The notes below the pieces were generated by a model that had not been told where the DNA came from, searched no databases, and saw only the letters and a program-made list of their open reading frames with translations. 12,016 nucleotides of DNA, taken from contig JAGHZG010000015.1 in assembly GCA_017743275.1 (NCBI GenBank), forward strand, positions 1 through 12,016. The letters are read 5' to 3'. A program made the position numbers and the translations under genes. Origin of the DNA: Chloroflexota bacterium. GTDB lineage: Bacteria; Chloroflexota; Anaerolineae; B4-G1; DUEL01. This document shows, in pieces, positions 1 to 10,754 of the stretch; within the stretch, counting starts at the first letter, position 1, and every line of letters starts with the position of its first letter.

Positions 1-794
1 GCGTAGAAGTCCACCCCGCCGGACGGGTTGGCATGGACCCGCCGGGCTGTCCATTCGGCACCCCGTTCCCGACCGTAGAAGGCCACCCGGCCCCCTTGTG
101 CCTGGCGCTCCTGGCCCAGTTCCCGCGCCACCAAGTGATCCCAGCAGGCCACCAGCAGGCCGTCGGGCGGGATGCGGGCCACGAATTCTGCAAACGCCTG
201 GCGGAAGTCGGCGAAGGTCGGATAGCAATCCGGGTGGTCGTGCTCCACGTTGGTCACAACGGCGATTCGCGGTGAAAATCCCAGAAAAGTCCGGTCGTAC
301 TCGTCCGCCTCCACCACGAAGTGGGGCCCGCCGCCCGCGCGGGCGTTGATCCCCAGCCCCGCCATCGTCCCGCCAACAATGAAGGTCGGGTCCAGGCCAG
401 CCTCCCAGAGAACCGTGGCGATCATCGCCGTCGTTGTCGTCTTGCCGTGGGTTCCGGCGACGGCGATGCCGATGCACCCTTCCATCAGTTGTCCCAGGAC
501 CTCGGCGCGCCGGAGCACCGGGATGCCCGCCGCCCGCGCGGCCTGGACCTCCACGTTGTCCTCCCGCACTGCTGAGGAGGCAATCACCACATCTGCTCCG
601 GCGACGTGCCCGGCCCGGTGGCCGATGTAGACCTGCGCGCCGTCCCGCGCCAGCGCCTCTGCTGCCGGGGAGAGGGCCAGGTCCGACCCGGAGACCACGG
701 CCCCGCGCTCCATCAGCACGCGGGCAATAGCGGAGAGCCCCGCTCCACCGATGCCGATGAAGTGGACGTGACGGGCATCCTGCAATCCGGGCAT
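1..794 (-). CDS. murC: UDP-N-acetylmuramate--L-alanine ligase MurC (N-terminal 264 residues; runs off left edge)
   Basis: MurC joins L-alanine to UDP-MurNAc in the cytoplasm using ATP, the first amino-acid step of peptidoglycan precursor synthesis. The translation shows the N-terminal Rossmann-type glycine loop IGIGGAGLSA (about residues 13-22), the ATP-binding P-loop GTHGKTTTT (114-122), EADEYD (162-167) and TNVEHDH (181-187), all in Mur-ligase order. The C-terminal domain lies outside the window. The ATG at 794 overlaps the stop of the upstream nuclease-like gene by one base (TGATG), and GAGG stands four bases before it, so translation is probably coupled to that accessory gene. In related clusters murC follows murG directly; here three genes intervene. 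Identity is firm; only the length is unknown. Confidence 0.96.
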   Translation of the reverse strand, partial: MPGLQDARHVHFIGIGGAGLSAIARVLMERGAVVSGSDLALSPAAEALARDGAQVYIGHRAGHVAGADVVIASSAVREDNVEVQAARAAGIPVLRRAEVLGQLMEGCIGIAVAGTHGKTTTTAMIATVLWEAGLDPTFIVGGTMAGLGINARAGGGPHFVVEADEYDRTFLGFSPRIAVVTNVEHDHPDCYPTFADFRQAFAEFVARIPPDGLLVACWDHLVARELGQERQAQGGRVAFYGRERGAEWTARRVHANPSGGVDFY

Positions 795-1351
795 CAGACC
801 TCACCCCTACCACGAATGCCCAGGTAAACCCAGAACTCTCTCAACGATCCGAATTTCTTTCCCCAGAGGGGTTGAACGACAACCATCTCTTTGCCCCTCC
901 AGGAAGGGATGATTTTCGCTGGCCGTTTCCGGTCCCCAGAACCCTCTGGGGTGATGAATTTCCGGTACTCTGAACCCACCTGACCGACGACGACCGCAAC
1001 AACCCGGTGCTCTCTCCCCAGGGGCAAAAGGGAAGCACATTCCCAGTGGTGCTCTTCCCCTCCTTCTTCTCCGCCCTTCCCCAAAGCAGGACGGACATCT
1101 TTGAATTTTCCCAGGGCATGGGACCACCCGGTCCGACTCTTGGACTCCATCAATACGACCACCCAGGGCTCTTCTCCGACCCGGCCCACGAGCAGGTGAT
1201 CCGGTCTTTTGAAACCCATATCTCCGAAATATGCCTCCAGATCATAGGCCCAAAGTCGTTCATCTTTCTGCACGGTTACCGAGATCCCCCGGAGGGCAAA
1301 AGTGGACTGCCGGGATGAGTCGTAGATGCAGTACTGGGCCAGCCGGCACAT
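794..1351 (-). CDS. Hypothetical protein, possible PD-(D/E)XK-type nuclease partner of the adjacent ATPase
   Basis: A 185-residue protein that I do not recognise as a named family. It has no membrane segment or signal peptide. The one suggestive feature is an Asp at about residue 51 (RPDHLLVGR), then a hydrophobic strand (WVVVLMES) ending in E69-S-K71 and followed by a basic helix-like stretch. That D...ExK pattern resembles the core of PD-(D/E)XK nucleases, but it is short and could arise by chance. I chose the ATG at 1351 because GGGAGG lies just ahead of it; a GTG at 1357 would give a 4-nt overlap with the ATPase and two more residues. The ATPase stop is only two bases upstream and murC begins within this gene's stop codon. 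The tight pairing suggests that it works with the ATPase. Function is inferred, not shown. Confidence 0.75.
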   Translation of the reverse strand: MCRLAQYCIYDSSRQSTFALRGISVTVQKDERLWAYDLEAYFGDMGFKRPDHLLVGRVGEEPWVVVLMESKSRTGWSHALGKFKDVRPALGKGGEEGGEEHHWECASLLPLGREHRVVAVVVGQVGSEYRKFITPEGSGDRKRPAKIIPSWRGKEMVVVQPLWGKKFGSLREFWVYLGIRGRGEV

Positions 1352-1353
1352 CC

Positions 1354-2526
1354 TCACCTCCCATACGCCCTCAGGTAGTCTATCCGGTTCGCCTCTACGA
1401 CCAGAGATTCCCCCACTTCCGCCAATTCCGCCTCTGAGATCACGCCGAGGGCTTTATCCACCAGGTCCACCACCACTCCATCCTCACGGAAGAAGTAGGC
1501 CCCCACTTTGCCCGGCTTCAGGCGCACTTCGGGTTCGGGAATGCCCGGCTCCGTGTAATCTTCTGGCAGCGCCGACGCTTCTATCAGGTTGTTGAGCACG
1601 TAGAGAACGGTCATAGAATGCGTCGTCACCAGGACCCGGAAGCCGTGGTTGACCAGGTAGGCCAGGATTTTGACCATCGCGACCTGGGCCTCCGGGTGCA
1701 GGTGAATTTCGGGCTCCTCCACGTGGATCGCGAAGTCCTCCGGTATCTCCCGGTCCCGGCGCCAGGTAAACAGTACCTCCGCCAGCAGGACCAGGGGCCA
1801 GTTCGCTTTCTGGCCTGAGGAGGCCATATCTACGTCCAGCCGTTCTTTTCCTCCGAACTCCCATTTCCACCGTTCCCCCACCCGATATACCTCTCCTCCC
1901 AGCGCTTGCTTCCCCATCTCACGAATCCTTTGCCCTTCTACAGTATCCGGTTGGCCGTCTTCCCACTGGTGAAACGTCTCGGCAACCATTTCCATCAAAT
2001 CCCCAAAACGAAAGAGCGTAGAGGGCCACGAGAGAATTTCCCATACAGATGGGGCCTGGGCGTGAGAGTACAGGATTCTTTCCGCCGGGATATATACGGC
2101 CTTGCCCAGCCTACCAGTTTCCAGGCGGCCGTGCATGCGTTCAATATATCTCTTCATAGATTGGTGGGGGTAAATCAGCCGGTTTCGGCGATCCATACGG
2201 AATCCCCACTCCTGACCAGCATAACCGTACGTCACTATAGCAGAGGGGTCAGCGAAAACCGCTATGGCTCTTCGGGCGCTCCGAAGATTATCCAGGGCTG
2301 TCCGAAGGATCCTCTCCGGGCTTGCCTCTGGACCCATTCTTGCCCTATAATAGCGGACCAGTAAAGGTAGATTCCTAAAGAAATAAATCAGTTGGGATAC
2401 CAGCGACTTCCCTGTTCCCTGCTTGCCGATGAACAGAGTAAACGGGTAAATCTCTAACCCACCTTCCGGCAAATTCCGTATAGGCCCGAGGGCCCCTTTC
2501 TCAATGCGCAAGATTTCTTTTTCCAT
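1354..2526 (-). CDS. AAA/ABC-type ATPase of the OLD/AAA_15-like kind
   Basis: A soluble 390-residue SMC/ABC-like ATPase. Visible motifs: Walker A GKQGTGKS (residues 34-41), a signature-like ASSGQ (about 236-240), Walker B FAIHVEEPEIHLHP (265-278, with E270 and E271), and the H-loop TTHS (301-304). The EPEIHLHP form is typical of AAA_15/AAA_21 and OLD-type ATPases found in defence modules. The ATG at 2526 is preferred: GGGAGGA lies about ten bases upstream. An in-frame TTG at 2544 would place the start inside that ribosome-binding site. No Toprim domain is present in the C-terminus, so any nuclease activity would have to come from a partner, most simply the next gene. Base composition is locally low: 23 of 60 bases are G/C at 2341-2400, against 45 of 60 in a GC-rich part of murG (3481-3540), which suggests acquisition. 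The exact subfamily and role are unknown. Confidence 0.88.
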   Translation of the reverse strand: MEKEILRIEKGALGPIRNLPEGGLEIYPFTLFIGKQGTGKSLVSQLIYFFRNLPLLVRYYRARMGPEASPERILRTALDNLRSARRAIAVFADPSAIVTYGYAGQEWGFRMDRRNRLIYPHQSMKRYIERMHGRLETGRLGKAVYIPAERILYSHAQAPSVWEILSWPSTLFRFGDLMEMVAETFHQWEDGQPDTVEGQRIREMGKQALGGEVYRVGERWKWEFGGKERLDVDMASSGQKANWPLVLLAEVLFTWRRDREIPEDFAIHVEEPEIHLHPEAQVAMVKILAYLVNHGFRVLVTTHSMTVLYVLNNLIEASALPEDYTEPGIPEPEVRLKPGKVGAYFFREDGVVVDLVDKALGVISEAELAEVGESLVVEANRIDYLRAYGR

Positions 2527-2547: not shown

Positions 2548-3126
2548 TTACAGCAGGACCACCAGCACCACAATTAACGTCACCCCGGTCAGGATGAGGA
2601 TCATTTGATCGCTCATCCAGGCCTGGGGCAAAAAGGTCTCGGCAAACCGGGCCACTTGAGGATCTGGCACCCGAATTCCCCAGAGGCCGGGAATGTTCTG
2701 CAGTGCTTCCGGCGGAAGATCTTGTGGAAGGTTTGGCGGGAGTCCGTAGTTTGCCGCATGCAGAAACCCCCAAATCGTTCCCGCCAGCAGATAGGCGTTT
2801 GCTGCCCCAACGATGAACCCCAGGATCAAATCCTGAACCTTCTCCCGCCGGGCCTTGCCCGCCAGATAGGGCGATATGGCGGGTCCGGCATAACCAAACA
2901 ACGCCATAATGATAAAGAGCACGCTGAAAATGTAGAACTGGTCTAAGGCAGAGCGCTCCTTCAGGTACTCCCGCACGAAGGGAATGATGTTCAGGAACAG
3001 CCAGCGCAGGAAGTAGGCAGAGATAATGGCCAGGGTGACCAGCAACTCCCGCACCCATCCCCGCAGCGCGCCCACGAGGCTGAACATCAAGACGACCAGC
3101 CAGAAGAAGGTGTTGAGCGGCATCAT
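2548..3126 (-). CDS. CvpA-family-like integral membrane protein
   Basis: A 192-residue hydrophobic protein with five likely membrane segments, at about residues 4-21, 27-48, 63-82, 99-121 and 173-192. The N-terminal LRGWVRELLV after the first segment and DLILGFIVGAANAYLLAG in the fourth match the general layout of CvpA (colicin V production) proteins; the fifth, C-terminal segment is extra. The molecular function of CvpA proteins is poorly defined. AGGGAG precedes two adjacent ATG codons at 3126 and 3123, and either could be used. A longer frame reaching 3204 overlaps murG but has no ribosome-binding site at its upstream ATG codons. The gene starts 53 bases after the murG stop and is followed 21 bases later by the ATPase start. 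Whether it belongs with the wall genes or the accessory cassette is unclear. Confidence 0.72.
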   Translation of the reverse strand: MMPLNTFFWLVVLMFSLVGALRGWVRELLVTLAIISAYFLRWLFLNIIPFVREYLKERSALDQFYIFSVLFIIMALFGYAGPAISPYLAGKARREKVQDLILGFIVGAANAYLLAGTIWGFLHAANYGLPPNLPQDLPPEALQNIPGLWGIRVPDPQVARFAETFLPQAWMSDQMILILTGVTLIVVLVVLL

Positions 3127-3179
3127 GGCTCTCCCTGATAGGCGGGAAACTCCCATTTGAGTGACACCGTTTGCATTTT

Positions 3180-4271
3180 TCACCCCCTGATCTCCGCCAA
3201 CCATTGAGCCAGATGTCCCGCCGCATCAGGACGGGACAGGGCCCGCGCGCGCTCCCGCATCTCCGAAAGTCGCGCCGGGTCCTCTAACAGCGACCGCACC
3301 GTCGGCACCAACTCGCCCTTCAGCCGCGCGTCCTCCAGGATGACCGCTGCGCCGCGCGAGACCAGCCACTCCGCATTCACCCGCTGGTAGCGCCATGCAT
3401 ATGGGTAGGGCACCAGGACGGCTGGCAGGCCGAAATACGGCAACTCCCCCAGCGTGGACGCCCCGGCCCGGCAGACGGCCAGGTCGGCCGCGGCCAGCGC
3501 CTGCCCCATCGCCGCGCCGTGCAGATATGGGTACGGGTGGTAGCGGCCCCGCGCGGGGGCCGGAAGGGTATCCGCCCGCGCCGCCACCCAGGGCCAGTCC
3601 CTCTCCCCGCTGATGTGGACCACGTGCGCCACCTCCAACAGGCCCTCCAGGTTCTCCACCACCGCCTGATTGATGCTCCGGGCGCCTGTGCTTCCCCCGA
3701 AAGCCAGCAGCACCGGTTCCCCGTCCGGCAAACCCAGCGCCGCCCGCGCCGCTGCCCGCTCTATCCCGGCGAACTCCGGCCGGACCGGGTAACCCGTCAC
3801 CACCACTTTGCGGGCCGGCAGGAAGGCCCGCGACTCCTCCACTGTCACCCCGATGCGGGTGGCCAGACGGGCGATGAACCGCACCGCCAGCCCCGGCTCA
3901 ATGTCCGGCAGATACAGCAGAATGGGCACCCGCAGAACCCATGCTGCCAGCGCCACCGGTACGCTGGCGTACCCCCCGGTGACGAAGAGGACGTCCGGGC
4001 GGCGCCGACGGCCCAGTCGCAGCGCTGCGAAGAATCCCTGCGCCAGTTTGACCAGATTGCGCGCGGCTCGCCAGGGCGCCAGCCCGTGCAGGCCCCCCGC
4101 CGGGATTCCGGCAAAGGGCAGCCCCGCGCGGGCAACCAGCCGTTCCTCCACGCTCCCGCTGCCGCCCACGTAGAGCACGTCCATCGGCCCCGCGGCCTTC
4201 AAGGCCTGCAGGACGGCCAGGCCCGGGTAGACGTGCCCGCCCGTTCCCCCACCGGCCATCCAGAGAAACAT
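3180..4271 (-). CDS. murG: UDP-GlcNAc:lipid I N-acetylglucosaminyltransferase MurG
   Basis: MurG is a peripheral inner-leaflet GT-B enzyme that transfers GlcNAc from UDP-GlcNAc to lipid I, giving lipid II. The 363-residue protein is of normal length. It shows the first glycine loop GGGTGGHVYP (7-16), VTGGYASVPVALAA (98-110), the C-domain glycine loop GGSTGARSIN (192-201), and the donor-site CRAGASTLGE (267-276) followed by PYPYAWRYQRVNAEWL. The usual HEQN-type acceptor loop reads LPDIEPG here (121-127), and the usual DHQ before NA reads YQR; both may be lineage variants. AAGGA lies eight bases before the ATG at 4271. The gene follows ftsW by 16 bases, and a repeat-derived stem-loop lies just upstream. 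Confidence 0.97.
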   Translation of the reverse strand: MFLWMAGGGTGGHVYPGLAVLQALKAAGPMDVLYVGGSGSVEERLVARAGLPFAGIPAGGLHGLAPWRAARNLVKLAQGFFAALRLGRRRRPDVLFVTGGYASVPVALAAWVLRVPILLYLPDIEPGLAVRFIARLATRIGVTVEESRAFLPARKVVVTGYPVRPEFAGIERAAARAALGLPDGEPVLLAFGGSTGARSINQAVVENLEGLLEVAHVVHISGERDWPWVAARADTLPAPARGRYHPYPYLHGAAMGQALAAADLAVCRAGASTLGELPYFGLPAVLVPYPYAWRYQRVNAEWLVSRGAAVILEDARLKGELVPTVRSLLEDPARLSEMRERARALSRPDAAGHLAQWLAEIRG

Positions 4272-5603: not shown

Positions 5604-6056
5604 TTATGAGCGCGGCAAGCCTCTCCCAGGGAAGTCGGGAAAGTTGTTGACCAGGCGGTGAATGCCGTTTTTCAAAACCTTCACGTTGAAATTGATCAGC
5701 AGGCCGACCCGACACCCCGAAAGCCTCAAATAGGATAGCAGTTGGGCATAATGCACGGGCAGCAACTGGTCTACTGCTTTAATCTCCACAATGACCTTCT
5801 CCTCAACCAACAGGTCCAGACGATAGCCGCCGTCCAGCCGCACATCTTTGTACACGACAGGAAGCGGCTTTTGCTGCTCCACCTTCAGTCCGCGCTGGGC
5901 CAATTCAAAGGCCAGGCACGCCTCATATGCGGACTCCAGCAACCCAGGCCCTAGAGCATGGTGGACTTCCATCGCCGCCTGGATAACTGTTTCTGTAATT
6001 CGATTCATCTCCTCCGCTTCTTTCAACAGCGCATTGTGTGCGGAAGAGGAGTCCAT
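5604..6056 (-). CDS. GxxExxY protein (PD-(D/E)XK nuclease-like superfamily)
   Basis: A 150-residue member of the GxxExxY family. The name motif is G38-LL-E41-SA-Y44 in [15 protein letters not shown]. It is followed by [19 protein letters not shown], with D81 and E91-I-K93 matching a PD-(D/E)XK core, and by [24 protein letters not shown], the usual C-terminal block with Q105. The biological role of the family is not established. Members average about 125 residues; this one has extra N-terminal and C-terminal tails, the latter ([11 protein letters not shown]) entering sequence next to the repeats. AAGGAG stands five bases before the ATG at 6056; a GTG at 6062 is a weaker choice. It begins 19 bases after the murD stop and is bracketed by inward-facing copies of the 9-nt-period repeat, which suggests that it arrived as an inserted unit between murD and ftsW. 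Confidence 0.92.
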
Positions 6057-6075
6057 AAGCACTCCTTACAAAAAA

Positions 6076-7504: not shown

Positions 7505-7549
7505 CCCTCATTGGTCATTCTGTCATTGGTCATTCCGTTATGGGTCATT
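7505..7549 (-). repeat. 15-nt tandem repeat overlapping the optional murD start
   Basis: Three 15-nt units (AATGACCCATAACGG, AATGACCAATGACAG, AATGACCAATGAGGG) run from 7549 to 7505 on the minus strand, and a partial fourth unit follows. Since 15 is a multiple of three, each unit places an ATG in the murD frame (7548, 7533, 7518, 7503) before the preferred start at 7491. Confidence 0.85.
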
Positions 7550-7772
7550 CCACCCAGATATGATCGGGCAGGACGGCACGGGAAGGGCGGACCTCCACTT
7601 CGCCGACCCGCGTCGGTTGGGCGCGGCCGTTCTCCCCCAGCAGAGTGGGATGCACGAAGCAGACCCGCGGCCGCTGGCCGTACTTCTGCTGGTAGCGGGC
7701 CACCGCCCGCTGGATTTTCTCGTTGATGCCCCGGTAGGGGTTATCGTCAAACCAGAGGAGACCGGAGTTCAT
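7545..7772 (-). CDS. Small conserved-looking hypothetical protein (75 residues)
   Basis: A 75-residue soluble protein with a firm ribosome-binding site (GGAGG seven bases before the ATG at 7772). Its start overlaps the stop of the DUF4276-like gene by four bases (ATGA). Visible segments are MNSGLLWFDDNP, a basic helix-like stretch KIQRAVARYQQKYGQRPRVC, FVHPTLLG, and a C-terminal VEVRPSRAVLPDHIWVE. I recall similar short proteins as conserved hypotheticals in Chloroflexota, but cannot confirm this here. No catalytic motif or zinc site is evident. The stop overlaps the optional upstream murD start. It could be a third member of the ATPase/Toprim cassette, or an ordinary lineage gene that the cassette landed beside. 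Confidence 0.78.
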   Translation of the reverse strand: MNSGLLWFDDNPYRGINEKIQRAVARYQQKYGQRPRVCFVHPTLLGENGRAQPTRVGEVEVRPSRAVLPDHIWVE

Positions 7773-8416
7773 AGGGCTTCCTCCCTCCGCGAGAGATACT
7801 TTTGAAGCATCTGTTCAAAGCGTCCCGCCCCTACGGGACAGTACTGGAGAACCAGTTCCCATCGGTCAGCGACATCGCGTAACCAACGCCGAAAATCCTC
7901 CTTGTCTGATGCAGAACTATTTCCACCTTTCAGTCTCTCAATCACCTCTTGCACATTCTTCGGAAGATGTTCTTCTGGCTTAGGTTCGCATTCCAGTTGG
8001 GGAGTTTTCGCTTTGCATCCGCTCAGGCCTGCACAGACCCAGGCTTCCAGTTTCTGGAGCATAATAGCCAGCACCACCCCTTCCGGCCACTCTCCTCGTT
8101 TGGCCCATTTCAGGGCAATACCGGAGACCTCCTCCCACTGGTCCTCTGCACTGGGCCTGCAAGGCTTTGAGGACTTTGCGACATCACCGTCCAGTTGAAG
8201 GACGATAGTGTCGAGTCCATCAAACTTCATGAAGATTTCCAGTTGACGCCCGTTTCGTACCAGCCATTGCTGAATTCCCGGATAGCCTCGAGTTTCCCTC
8301 TGCTCCCATTTGGGCTGGAGAGGGCTGATCTCTACATCCTCACCGCAGCGACTTTTGATAAGAATTTCCAAGAACGTGTAATCCGTCCACCCCTCCACAA
8401 TCAGACCGACCCGCAT
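7769..8416 (-). CDS. DUF4276-like protein with Toprim-type nuclease fold
   Basis: A 215-residue soluble protein. The N-terminal MRVGLIVEGWTDYTFLEIL carries the conserved Toprim glutamate (E8), and IVLQLDGDVAKS carries the DxD (D76, D78), the metal-binding pattern of Toprim nucleases and primases. LQKLEAWVCA (about 121-129) and the C-terminal CPVGAGRFEQMLQKYL fit the DUF4276 family as I remember it. The ATG at 8416 follows AGGAGG; the frame extends to 8470 but that part overlaps the ATPase gene. The ATPase stop is 11 bases upstream and the ribosome-binding site abuts it, so the two are almost certainly translated together. An ABC ATPase paired with a separate Toprim protein recalls PARIS and split OLD-type defence modules. 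Nuclease activity and defence role are inferences. Confidence 0.84.
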   Translation of the reverse strand: MRVGLIVEGWTDYTFLEILIKSRCGEDVEISPLQPKWEQRETRGYPGIQQWLVRNGRQLEIFMKFDGLDTIVLQLDGDVAKSSKPCRPSAEDQWEEVSGIALKWAKRGEWPEGVVLAIMLQKLEAWVCAGLSGCKAKTPQLECEPKPEEHLPKNVQEVIERLKGGNSSASDKEDFRRWLRDVADRWELVLQYCPVGAGRFEQMLQKYLSRREEAL

Positions 8417-8427
8417 TGCCCTCCTCC

Positions 8428-9636
8428 TCAGAACAAGACAGGGACTGCCCCCAACCAGCCCTGCAGCCACAGGTCTGAGAGAACCAGACCGTGCTCTTCC
8501 TTCAACTTCCTGGCTTCTTCAGTTACCGCAATGGGTCGAACCGTTGTAGCCCCTTTGCTGTCCCGTTCCACCGCAAACAGGCGTACCCCAGGGTCAAACA
8601 AAGGCAGACCATCCAGAACCATAGGGTCATGAGTCGTAAGCAGAACCTGGCGACGGGGTGACTCCTCAAGAAGGAGTTTGCAGAATGTACTTGTCAACTT
8701 CCTGACCAGCCACGGGTGCATGCCATATCCGAAATTGTCCACGGCCAGGAACGGCGGCAGATTCGGATGAAGAGCAAGCGCCAGGGTAAAAAGGACGTAG
8801 AGGACCCCTTCGCTGGCGTCGTAGGCTGTAATTTGATTTCTCCCTCCCCGCATCCGCCTGTCAGTAAATACGATCACTCGCCGTGTGGTAGGCAATGCAG
8901 GAGGGATGCGGGCTTTCGTAGGGGGCAGTACTTCAACTTTTTCTACCCAGTCCACCATTTCCTGAAGGTGCCGGACCACTTTCTCCCCCTGCGGCGAATT
9001 GAGCAAAGATTCCAGTAACTCAGTGAATCCTCCTCCGGAAAGTCCAAGAGGTGAGAGGGGCATAGGGTCAGGCTGGATTCCCCGCAGCATGGGGGTCAGA
9101 GGTGTGAAAATGACGAAACTTCGCAGAGCCTCCAGAACCTCTACCCCTTCTTCTGGCAGGTAGAGATAGGCCATGCGGACATATCCCTGTTCTGGCCGGG
9201 GCTTTTCGGACCGTCTGCCTCGCCCGAATCGCATCCGTCCAGGCCCCCTTCCCAGTACAGGCGTTCCGCCCACCTGCAAATTTTCCGTGGTGTATTGCCA
9301 ACTGGGGCGTGGCTTTTCTATCGGATTATCCAGCCCCACCCGATAGAGGACTCCCTGTGGCCCATCCCCACCTACGGCTTCCAGAGTAATGACTCTACGG
9401 AACCGAATGTCCTGCAAAGAGACTTTGTAGAGCGCCGGCAGCCCCCAGCGCACTCCCCTTCGGCTAAGATAGGCGTCATCTACGGCCCCCTCCACCGCCG
9501 CACCCAGGACACCAATGGCCTCCAGCAGATTGGTCTTTCCAACCCCGTTGGGGCCAATGAACACATTGACCTGCCCTAACTCTATTTCTGTGTCTACAAT
9601 GGATTTAAAGCCCTGAATGCGTATTTTGCGGATCAT
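8428..9636 (-). CDS. AAA_21-like ABC-type ATPase paired with the DUF4276 gene
   Basis: A 402-residue ATPase beginning MIRKIRIQGFKSI, the classic start of RecF/SMC-like defence ATPases. Walker A is GPNGVGKT (28-35). A signature-like DASEG lies at 273-277. Walker B reads PPFLAVDNFGYGMHP (294-308), and the H-loop is LLTTHDP (332-338). Position 301, normally the catalytic glutamate, is asparagine; I believe DN is a habit of the DUF4276-linked subfamily, so it need not mean inactivity. AGGAGG precedes the ATG at 9636. The gene start overlaps the Phd-type antitoxin by 32 bases, and the DUF4276 gene follows 11 bases after the stop. It is clearly different in sequence from the other ATPase in this window (1354-2526). 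Confidence 0.88.
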   Translation of the reverse strand: MIRKIRIQGFKSIVDTEIELGQVNVFIGPNGVGKTNLLEAIGVLGAAVEGAVDDAYLSRRGVRWGLPALYKVSLQDIRFRRVITLEAVGGDGPQGVLYRVGLDNPIEKPRPSWQYTTENLQVGGTPVLGRGPGRMRFGRGRRSEKPRPEQGYVRMAYLYLPEEGVEVLEALRSFVIFTPLTPMLRGIQPDPMPLSPLGLSGGGFTELLESLLNSPQGEKVVRHLQEMVDWVEKVEVLPPTKARIPPALPTTRRVIVFTDRRMRGGRNQITAYDASEGVLYVLFTLALALHPNLPPFLAVDNFGYGMHPWLVRKLTSTFCKLLLEESPRRQVLLTTHDPMVLDGLPLFDPGVRLFAVERDSKGATTVRPIAVTEEARKLKEEHGLVLSDLWLQGWLGAVPVLF

Positions 9637-9940
9637 TGTTCCTCCTCAACTTTGAAATCTCCACCACCAGGGTGCTCACCAATACCTGCCCCCGGTTCAT
9701 TCCGGCTGGCTCTGGGATGCGCGCCGGCTCACCGGTCCAGGCCAGAATCCCCTCGGCAGCCAGTTCCCACATTCGTCCTTCCAGGTCCGGCGGCCACGTT
9801 TCCTTCCCCGAAGGCACAACCGGCACCAGACGGGCCACCGGTTTCCCCCGGTCCGTCACCACAAAGGCCCGCCCCTGGCGAATGGCCCGCAAGTAGTACC
9901 CCAGCCGGTTTTTCAGTTCCCGTATCCCTACTGTCTCCAT
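9605..9940 (-). CDS. Phd/YefM-family antitoxin without an adjacent VapC-type toxin
   Basis: A 111-residue protein whose first 45 residues, METVGIRELKNRLGYYLRAI then GRAFVVTDRGKPVARLVPV, are a standard Phd/YefM DNA-binding and dimerisation domain. In VapBC operons such a gene is followed by a PIN-domain toxin; here an ATPase follows instead, and the antitoxin tail (from about residue 100) overlaps its first 32 bases. The segment GQVLVSTLVVEISKLRRN looks like a normal VapB ending that has continued past its usual stop. AAGGA stands four bases before the ATG at 9940. The PIN gene lies upstream, 27 bases away, but already has an AbrB-type partner. It could be an orphan left by toxin loss, a second antitoxin for the PIN toxin, or a regulator of the ATPase/Toprim pair. 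Confidence 0.85.
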   Translation of the reverse strand: METVGIRELKNRLGYYLRAIRQGRAFVVTDRGKPVARLVPVVPSGKETWPPDLEGRMWELAAEGILAWTGEPARIPEPAGMNRGQVLVSTLVVEISKLRRNNDPQNTHSGL

Positions 9941-9967
9941 GCGTTCCTTTCCACTGCCTGTGGTCCC

Positions 9968-10420
9968 CTATGTTGCCAGCAGGGCCAGCAGTTCGCGCAC
10001 CCGAACGATGAAATCCCCGGGCCGCAGGACGGTGACCGAGGGATGGCCGGGCTGGAAGTGCCGAAGGTTGAAGGTCACCAGCCACGGGCACCTTTCCCGG
10101 ACGGCGGCGACCAGAATCGGCAAATCCTCCGGGTCGGCCAGGCCCGTGTAAGGCTCCAGGTCGTCCGGTGTCGGGTCGGGCACCACCTGCAGGGACCGGT
10201 GGACGATCATCTGAAAGGCCGGGATGGCCTGGGGTAATTTCTCCGCCAGATTCCGCTCCCCTTCGGTAACGGCCTGCCGGGAAGTCATCCCCTCTATCAG
10301 CGTGATTTCGGCCATCCGCAGAAGGAGCAGACTGGCCCCGTGCTCGCCCGGGCTGGCGGCCCCGGCGAAAAGAACATCCGCATCCACAAAGACGCGCGGT
10401 TTAGACGGTCTGGCGGACAC
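9968..10420 (-). CDS. PIN-domain ribonuclease toxin (VapC-like, COG1569 style)
   Basis: A 150-residue PIN-domain protein. PRVFVDADVLFAGA holds the first acidic residue (D13); an acidic pair at E53/E55, D99 in DPEDLPILVAAV and N118 in VTFNLRHF complete the usual metal-binding set. PIN toxins cleave RNA and are held inactive by the partner antitoxin. The best start is the GTG at 10420, which overlaps the end of the AbrB-type gene by 20 bases; no later start keeps the first strand of the PIN fold. The upstream ribosome-binding site is weak, which fits translational coupling to the antitoxin. The overlap and order (antitoxin first) are those of a type II toxin-antitoxin operon. Confidence 0.87.
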   Translation of the reverse strand: MSARPSKPRVFVDADVLFAGAASPGEHGASLLLLRMAEITLIEGMTSRQAVTEGERNLAEKLPQAIPAFQMIVHRSLQVVPDPTPDDLEPYTGLADPEDLPILVAAVRERCPWLVTFNLRHFQPGHPSVTVLRPGDFIVRVRELLALLAT

Positions 10421-10679
10421 CGTACTTTTCCCGGTAATACCGCTCTCGCTGTTCCCGCAGGCTGGATAACAGGTCCTCTATGCTCAGCCCGGCTTCCAGA
10501 CGCATCCGCTCAATCTCCCGAGCCAGTTCCGGCACCATCGGCACCATCGGCGTCAGCACAAAAATGCCATCCAGGTCCACCAGGCGAAAAGTGTCCCCGG
10601 GCCGGATACCGTACTTCTCCCGCAGTTCGGCCGGCAGGGTCAACGTCCCCCGTTGTCGCACCTGAACCGTCGCGCTCAT
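10401..10679 (-). CDS. AbrB/MazE-type (SpoVT-AbrB) antitoxin
   Basis: A 92-residue protein with an N-terminal swapped-hairpin AbrB domain: MSATVQVRQRGTLTLPAELR, then EKYGIRPGDTFRLVDLDG. The C-terminal half (about residues 50-85) is charged and probably helical, as expected for the toxin-binding part. The ATG at 10679 follows AAGGAG; a longer frame to 10754 would begin upstream of the likely transcription start and is rejected. A nine-base tandem duplication (GGCACCATC, 10531-10548 on the plus strand) gives MVPMVP at the hinge. It pairs with the overlapping PIN gene and, as is usual for such antitoxins, may repress its own promoter just upstream. Confidence 0.87.
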   Translation of the reverse strand: MSATVQVRQRGTLTLPAELREKYGIRPGDTFRLVDLDGIFVLTPMVPMVPELAREIERMRLEAGLSIEDLLSSLREQRERYYREKYGVRQTV

Positions 10680-10700
10680 GTCCCTATCTCCTTGTCTGCA

Positions 10701-10726
10701 TTTCTGCAACGGCTGATTTTCTGCAA
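10701..10726 (-). promoter_or_regulatory. Direct repeat TTGCAGAAA, possible operator
   Basis: TTGCAGAAA occurs twice on the minus strand (10726-10718 and 10709-10701), 17 bases apart, between the likely -10 element and the AbrB ribosome-binding site. Position suits autoregulation by the antitoxin. The spacing is not a whole number of helical turns, and no binding consensus is known to me. Confidence 0.3.
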
Positions 10727-10754
10727 GTATACACCTGCATACCCAATTCCACAA
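10726..10754 (-). promoter_or_regulatory. Likely sigma-70-type promoter of the AbrB-PIN operon
   Basis: On the minus strand TTGTGG (10754-10749) and TATACT (10731-10726) are separated by exactly 17 bases, a good match to housekeeping promoter elements. The start of transcription would fall near 10719, about 40 bases before the AbrB start. Downstream genes as far as the DUF4276 cassette and murD could also be read from it. Confidence 0.6.

Follow-up and report, generated by a model that had tools for sequence, protein, structure and literature searches.

Pairs of genes encoding an OLD-type ABC ATPase and a separate nuclease have been described as defence systems, the experimentally tested example being WonAB, in which the ATPase is combined with a PD-(D/E)xK nuclease (PMC12137116). 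In the published account, both WonA and WonB are needed, WonA residues K34, R182, E300, and H333 and WonB residue K71 are required for defence, and activation inhibits translation; WonB toxicity depends on WonA, and simple sequestration was ruled out (PMC12137116). PD-T4-4 and an operon described as "OLD-ABC ATPase + novel REase" are named by the same authors as related to WonAB (PMC12137116). OLD-ABC ATPases paired with HNH, PD-(D/E)XK, or PIN nucleases were also reported from 594 BREX/BR taxa (PMC12839542), and an ATPase with an effector nuclease is likewise found in PARIS, where the effector is a TOPRIM protein (PMC12839542), and in Septu, where it is an HNH protein (PMC10952713). Here we examined a 12,016-nucleotide (nt) stretch of a Chloroflexota genome (contig JAGHZG010000015.1 of assembly GCA_017743275.1, which is 2.26 Mb in size and 76.5% complete; the whole stretch is referred to as the window), in which two adjacent genes, termed the dyad herein, sit between cvpA and murC of a peptidoglycan operon. 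We consider it probable that they form a defence dyad of an OLD-type ABC ATPase and a PD-(D/E)XK nuclease, with a mode of action like that of WonAB and PD-T4-4.

The main genes of the window lie on the minus strand, as do all features of the window given below, and follow the order of the division and cell wall (dcw) cluster: mraY, murD, ftsW, murG, cvpA, the ATPase gene, the small gene, and murC, with the mur and fts names assigned from sequence likeness and order, and that of cvpA from Pfam. The first dyad gene (1354..2526; 390 amino acids [aa]), recognized from its open reading frame (ORF), Pfam matches, and near-full-length relatives, encodes an OLD/AAA_15-like ABC ATPase and ends in a TGA stop codon at 1356-1354. 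The second (794..1351; 185 aa), recognized from its ORF, alignments, and a predicted model, encodes a small PD-(D/E)XK-like protein; its ATG at 1351 lies two bases past the ATPase stop, and its own stop, TGA at 796-794, overlaps the start of murC in the sequence TGATG (792..796), the A of the stop being the A of the murC ATG. An alternative GTG start at 1357 would overlap the ATPase stop (GTGA), but the invariance of M1 in 12 aligned close relatives speaks for the ATG. The junction is bordered upstream by the cvpA-like gene (2548..3204; Colicin_V, 4.1e-9) and downstream by the 5' part of murC (3..794), which runs off the window and owes its name to sequence similarity and gene order in the operon and not to a family scan. 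Both the 185-residue frame two bases past the ATPase and its end inside the murC start codon are as the original prediction, made from the sequence of the window, had placed them.

The ATPase matched AAA_15 (9.5e-16) and AAA_21 (1.9e-8) in Pfam and nothing else, including no nuclease family, which bears out its description as an OLD/AAA_15-like ATPase without a nuclease domain; the fused TOPRIM that is a feature of Gabija and OLD was not detected in its 390 residues. Walker A, signature, Walker B, and H-loop are all present. In the Walker A motif GKQGTGKS (residues 34-41; 2404..2427), G34, Q36, G37, G39, K40, and S41 were invariant in an alignment of 22 ATPase relatives, and G34 and K40 were also invariant against three PD-T4-4-like ATPases. 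The conserved arginine R150 (2077..2079) and the H-loop H303 (1618..1620), the latter part of a THS invariant across the 22 relatives, were retained in both comparisons. The signature-like SSGQ (residues 236-239; 1810..1821) and the Walker B/D-loop EEPEIHLHP (residues 270-278; 1693..1719) were each invariant in the 22 rows, although of SSGQ only S236 was invariant against the PD-T4-4-like ATPases. A protein search with the ATPase returned 254 relatives at E<=1e-3, the best 120 of which are the ones listed, and a PDB sequence search returned eight matches, all within the C-terminal ATPase region. The gene is uncommon, with matches in 8 of the 48 genomes from the order (E<=1e-40) and in 3 of 400 genomes drawn evenly from the phylum (E<=1e-30, four candidates scored per genome, and the window's own genome counted).

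The small protein had no Pfam, PADLOC, or NCBIfam match at E<=1, consistent with the earlier failure to place it in a named family, and a PDB sequence search with the partner profile gave no match at E<=10. The D51 and E69-S70-K71 arrangement, with a hydrophobic stretch before E69, was nonetheless found at the predicted positions. P50-D51 (1199..1204), the first acidic residue of the predicted active site and the proline before it, was conserved in 12/12 rows of a close-family alignment; K71 was likewise present in 12/12, and position 69 was E in nine rows and D in three. This conservation, the absence of which had been named as a refuting observation, indicates that the motif is more than chance. 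When distant relatives were added (18 rows), the only columns conserved at 90% or more were D51 (18/18) and E69 (17 E, 1 D), and position 71 was K in 11, R in four, and E in three, so that the lysine is not universal, R or E taking its place in a number of distant relatives. A 25-row alignment gave M1, D51, G56, and W174 as columns at or above 90%, with position 69 being E in 22 and D in three. A further conserved pair, H101-H102 (1046..1051), was found in 12/12 close-family rows and in 13/18 and 15/18 rows of the 18-row alignment, respectively. A Pfam scan of 25 partners matched 12 families, each by a single member. One small-protein relative, P0013, has an apparent frameshift across its middle, including the motif region, which reflects either decay or a sequencing error.

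Structure prediction points to a nuclease-like core. In the AlphaFold2 model (mean predicted local distance difference test score of 73.4; predicted template modelling score of 0.74), D51 lies ahead of strand 52-58, and E69-S70-K71 (1139..1147), the [D/E]xK half of the motif, falls at the end of strand 64-69, which E69 closes and which is followed by helix 76-90. The 50 structural matches listed are mostly enzymes that we take to be of the PD-(D/E)XK type, among them the FokI cleavage domain, Can2, BspD6I, McrC, HamA, SduA, and Hjc. The reading of the small protein as a putative nuclease is well supported.

The dyad is organized as WonAB is: the first of the two genes encodes an ABC ATPase in which the Walker A, R, E, and H residues are present, the second encodes a small protein of the PD-(D/E)xK type, and the motif lysine stands at position 71 both in WonB and in the window protein. 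K40, R150, E271, H303, and K71 of the window are all conserved and were paired with the WonAB residues by motif and spacing alone. The R-to-E and E-to-H distances agree (118 and 33 in WonA versus 121 and 32 in the window), whereas the K-to-R distance differs (148 versus 110); R150 is possibly the counterpart of WonA R182, judging only from its spacing to E and H. Unlike WonAB, which is located in a prophage, the window dyad is part of a chromosomal cell-wall operon.

For PD-T4-4 we used three yardstick dyads, from an Escherichia marmotae plasmid, a Vibrio phage, and a Bernardetia plasmid. The E. marmotae dyad was clear for both genes (870/358 bits) and the other two ATPases scored 614 and 332 bits, with their weaker partners scoring just 63 and 46 bits in PADLOC. 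The layout and gene order are shared with the window, and D51 and K71 align in 10/10 rows. In contrast to the 332-870 bits of the yardstick ATPases, each against its best PD-T4-4_A model, the window ATPase reached 54.9 bits (1.7e-15) in a partial match limited to residues 226-362, and it is 71-93 aa shorter than the three yardsticks. With a partial score of this kind and no PD-T4-4_B match for the small protein, the dyad was rejected as a member of PADLOC PD-T4-4 itself.

The best PADLOC match of the window ATPase was to AriA (1.4e-17), and the original prediction had drawn a parallel to Septu and PARIS. That parallel holds for the combination of an ATPase with an effector nuclease but not for the effector, since the small protein matches neither the TOPRIM (AriB) nor the HNH (PtuB) partner in Pfam or PADLOC at E<=1 and has a motif of another type. 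Partial ATPase matches were also found to PDC-M56A (9.7e-16), PDC-M29A (1.7e-14), and PDC-M47A (2.7e-12), and some relatives' partners matched PDC-M47B (best 0.00066) or PDC-M29B (best 0.00097); however, clear members score far higher (417 bits for PDC-M56A and 431 bits for PDC-M31A), and the window small protein matches none of these families, leaving no strong two-gene profile match. A search for PDC-M29 in 298 genomes of the class at E<=1e-60 returned nothing, but the control genomes were silent too, making it uninformative. The BREX/BR auxiliary effector dyads resemble the window dyad in that an OLD-ABC ATPase is combined with a PD-(D/E)XK protein in place of TOPRIM (PMC12839542), and some relatives of the window dyad lie inside or near Hma genes, although within the window itself no BREX/BR genes adjoin it. 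Because OLD-ABC/PD-(D/E)XK dyads (PMC12839542), including WonAB (PMC12137116), are thus in print, the type of system is already known, and the claim that it was undescribed falls. What remains of the proposed two-gene ATPase and nuclease-type system is backed by the pairing, the motif, and the nuclease-like predicted core.

The two genes recur together. We read 18 near ATPase loci (the window, G003, G006, G013, two in G016, G022, G030, G036, L035-L038, and L040-L044), a set that leaves out 32 weak loci (L046-L077) and ATPase matches above E 1e-30. A small partner lies directly downstream in 16 of the 18 and aligns over the motif region, the lysine not always being present. The exceptions are G013, in which a very divergent ATPase is followed by a uvrA-like gene, and G006, which carries a dyad remnant. 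From the other side, a partner profile search found 15 places in 11 of the 298 class genomes, the window's own counted, and an ATPase was next to the partner in 15/15. Six of these places were pairs already known, and in each of the other nine an ATPase relative directly precedes the partner; among the nine, L156 is the L044 locus again (2,000 bases identical), two ATPases are truncated where the locus ends, and the weakest two partner matches have E values of 2.7e-5 and 5.8e-4. Two distant ATPases (~27% identity over most of the query) were found without a recognized partner (G436) or with an 82-aa ORF at the locus end (G070). When the loci concerned (844-2291 of L085 and 302-1977 of L159) were compared by eye, the latter ORF looked similar to the beginning of the 177-aa partner of L159, which suggests a cut or shortened partner in G070. 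The counts in both directions therefore indicate that the genes travel together, a recurrence that the original prediction had named as support, with the pairing becoming looser at greater distance.

In the mechanism that we consider most likely, a dimer of the ATPase would serve as sensor and gate, and upon infection it would license the small nuclease. The nuclease would then cleave nucleic acid, either host RNA, as has been suggested for WonB, or DNA, and this cleavage would shut down the cell, giving an abortive outcome. The dyad would have reached the cvpA-murC junction by lateral transfer and may be co-transcribed with the peptidoglycan operon. A scan of the gene strand gave one promoter-like site, within cvpA, and four terminator-like sites; the promoter-like and terminator-like totals of 3 and 5, compared with shuffled means of 0.8 and 2.4, are consensus matches only.

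Occupancy of the junction was surveyed across the order. A search at E<=1e-60 located murC in 41 of the 48 genomes, and 41 junctions were readable, a set that includes G036, whose contig ends within murC, and excludes G026, whose contig ends 155 bases upstream. The dyad stands directly before murC in five of the 41, namely, the window, G003, G016, G030, and G036, and a remnant is present in G006; the remaining 35 junctions have no ATPase or partner (blastp, 1e-3), and these include the congeners G001 and G002. The G030 contig starts at the ATPase, so that cvpA is out of view, and no cvpA was recognized in G010 and G021. Away from the junction, ATPase matches in the order (E<=1e-40) were limited to G022, G013, and a second copy in G016. 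In G006, two contigs carry ATPase ends, and the C-terminal piece reads in frame into what appear to be the last small-protein residues; this remnant (L030, 1-523) overlaps murC with most of the small gene gone, and an assembly fault is possible. The dyad-free junction of G001, a congener with 96% identity in murC, has cvpA and murC frames that overlap by four bases; the murC overlap is therefore ordinary for a compact operon and no sign of shared function. The coupling to murC that had been proposed consequently holds as a description of layout but gives no evidence of a functional link, given the 35 junctions without the dyad. The same congener has a 94-aa ORF between murG and cvpA (L116, 3092-3376), which seems to resemble a small antitoxin-like protein.

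These distributions bear on the idea that the dyad is a toxin-antitoxin or selfish addiction module, with a nuclease toxin held in check by the ATPase and anchored beside an essential gene where its loss would be costly. The two-gene layout, the position beside murC, and the Phd, MazE-like, and PIN genes of the same operon would all suit such a module, yet the dyad is frequently absent and, in one relative, reduced to a remnant, and the WonA-dependent toxicity of WonB (PMC12137116) runs counter to a toxin that is simply sequestered. We judge this explanation unlikely.

A defence dyad is better matched by what surrounds some of the relatives elsewhere, for which ten proteins chosen by eye from six loci outside the mur operon were compared with PADLOC. 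In a Laspinema genome (L041), HmaA is on one side of the dyad and HmaB on the other; the dyad lies ahead of HmaB in Geitlerinema (L043), ~2 kb from HmaC in L037 (where one neighbour protein had no PADLOC match), and ~2.6 kb from AbiEi in L036; neighbours in L040 gave weaker effector-type matches only. In the Deltaproteobacterium locus L038 (4814-9868), type I-E CRISPR Cas8e/Cas11e genes are bracketed by the dyad, ahead of Cas8e, and a PDC-M56A ATPase (1.2e-125), past Cas11e. Among viral contigs, 138 stretches matched a pattern and none encodes a relative (tblastn). Plasmids gave no record at 1e-15 and 26 at 1e-3, none with 80% query coverage, and plasmid searches with relatives as queries gave 1 and 11 records with partial matches. 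Five phage records were found, one of them, unannotated, at 89% coverage and 23% identity. An ATPase/nuclease of RecF/OLD-like type that repairs DNA or controls mobile elements, acting on plasmid or damaged DNA and not on phage, would account for the Old-family and Holliday junction resolvase resemblances, but hardly for the patchy occurrence in the order and the phylum or for the defence genes near some relatives, and we judge it improbable.

How the presumed defence dyad came to this junction was approached with ATPase trees. Both a 131-row tree and a careful 32-row tree place the G036 ATPase together with the second copy of G016 and cyanobacterial ATPases, apart from the remaining ATPases of the mur slot; the G036 partner is also of another type, ~23% identical to that of the window. 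A single clade of the five intact mur-slot ATPases was rejected against ten rows known to lie outside mur operons (approximately unbiased test, p-AU 2.8e-53), the long-branch rows G013 and L044 having been removed beforehand; many tree rows are metagenome proteins without known location, and the reading of location rests on those ten rows. With G036 set aside, the other four fall on one side of a branch against the ten, with support of 84/77, which is not strong, and they may represent one event or several. As the trees are unrooted, dyads may have reached the junction twice, which we find more likely, or once with later exits.

Within the genus, fourfold-degenerate sites differ between the window and G003 by 0.559 in the ATPase gene and 0.552 in the small gene, compared with 0.270-0.414 in mraY, murD, ftsW, murG, cvpA, and murC. 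Vertical inheritance from the genus ancestor is disfavoured by this contrast, and replacement or separate arrival of the dyad appears to fit better than simple inheritance with its flanks; faster synonymous change or different codon use is a possible cause of the higher divergence. Against G016, all values are high (0.69 and 0.76 for the dyad and 0.55-0.78 for dcw genes), and the comparison is silent. G+C content is 0.56-0.57 in the dyad, 0.69 in murC, 0.72 in murG, and 0.57 in cvpA, and it was discarded as proof of lateral transfer because cvpA is equally low. Apart from one imperfect inverted pair, repeats at 700-2700 were confined to short, imperfect families of two copies each, and none of these repeats brackets the dyad in the manner of element ends. 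That the dyad is a housekeeping addition to the dcw operon, serving cell-wall synthesis or division through an ATPase acting on envelope or chromosome processes, is very improbable, as the single strand, tight spacing, murC overlap, and junction shared by several genera of the order are outweighed by the many dyad-free junctions (congeners included), the deletion remnant in G006, the Hma, CRISPR, and Abi genes adjoining some relatives, and a divergence exceeding that of the flanks.

As a defence dyad, the pair extends the OLD-ABC/nuclease group to a family whose effector is named by none of the profile libraries searched and whose relatives span Chloroflexota, cyanobacteria, and Deltaproteobacteria. 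The presence of dyads in several genera at this single junction looks new; judged from search listings, a literature search surfaced no pertinent paper that places defence genes in the dcw cluster or around murC. Such modules have probably settled more than once in a highly conserved essential operon and not in a classical defence island, which gives surveys confined to defence islands a concrete further place to look. We consider it unlikely that ATPase/nuclease defence dyads truly land time and again at the cvpA-murC junction of Thermoflexales-type cell-wall operons and that their embedding there, among closely packed essential genes, is functional; if so, the supply of the dyad would be tied to growth, its loss would be costly, or cell-wall synthesis itself would be guarded.

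Further genes of note were observed in the same operon, and no part of the window matched Rfam at the gathering threshold. A second ATPase dyad lies between mraY and murD (7769-9636), in which M31A gave a nearly full-length match to PADLOC PDC-M31A (1.5e-129) and M31B gave one to PDC-M31B (9.6e-20) along with a weak match to DUF4276; this dyad was not seen in the matching stretch of the congener G003. Also between mraY and murD (9605-10754) are Phd/YefM-type antitoxin, PIN_3, and MazE-like genes, relatives of which occur in changed order in G003, with a PIN relative in G006, so that this stretch looks variable within the genus. Between murD and ftsW (5604-6062), a GxxExxY protein (PDDEXK_3, 1.9e-44; GxxExxY, 6.8e-47) has a 43% identical relative in G003 that sits downstream of murC. 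A 75-aa ORF directly before murD (7545-7772) has relatives before murD in G003, G006, G008, G011, and G012 (54-86% identity), and given this conserved placement, it is apparently a resident gene of the operon that lacks a name.

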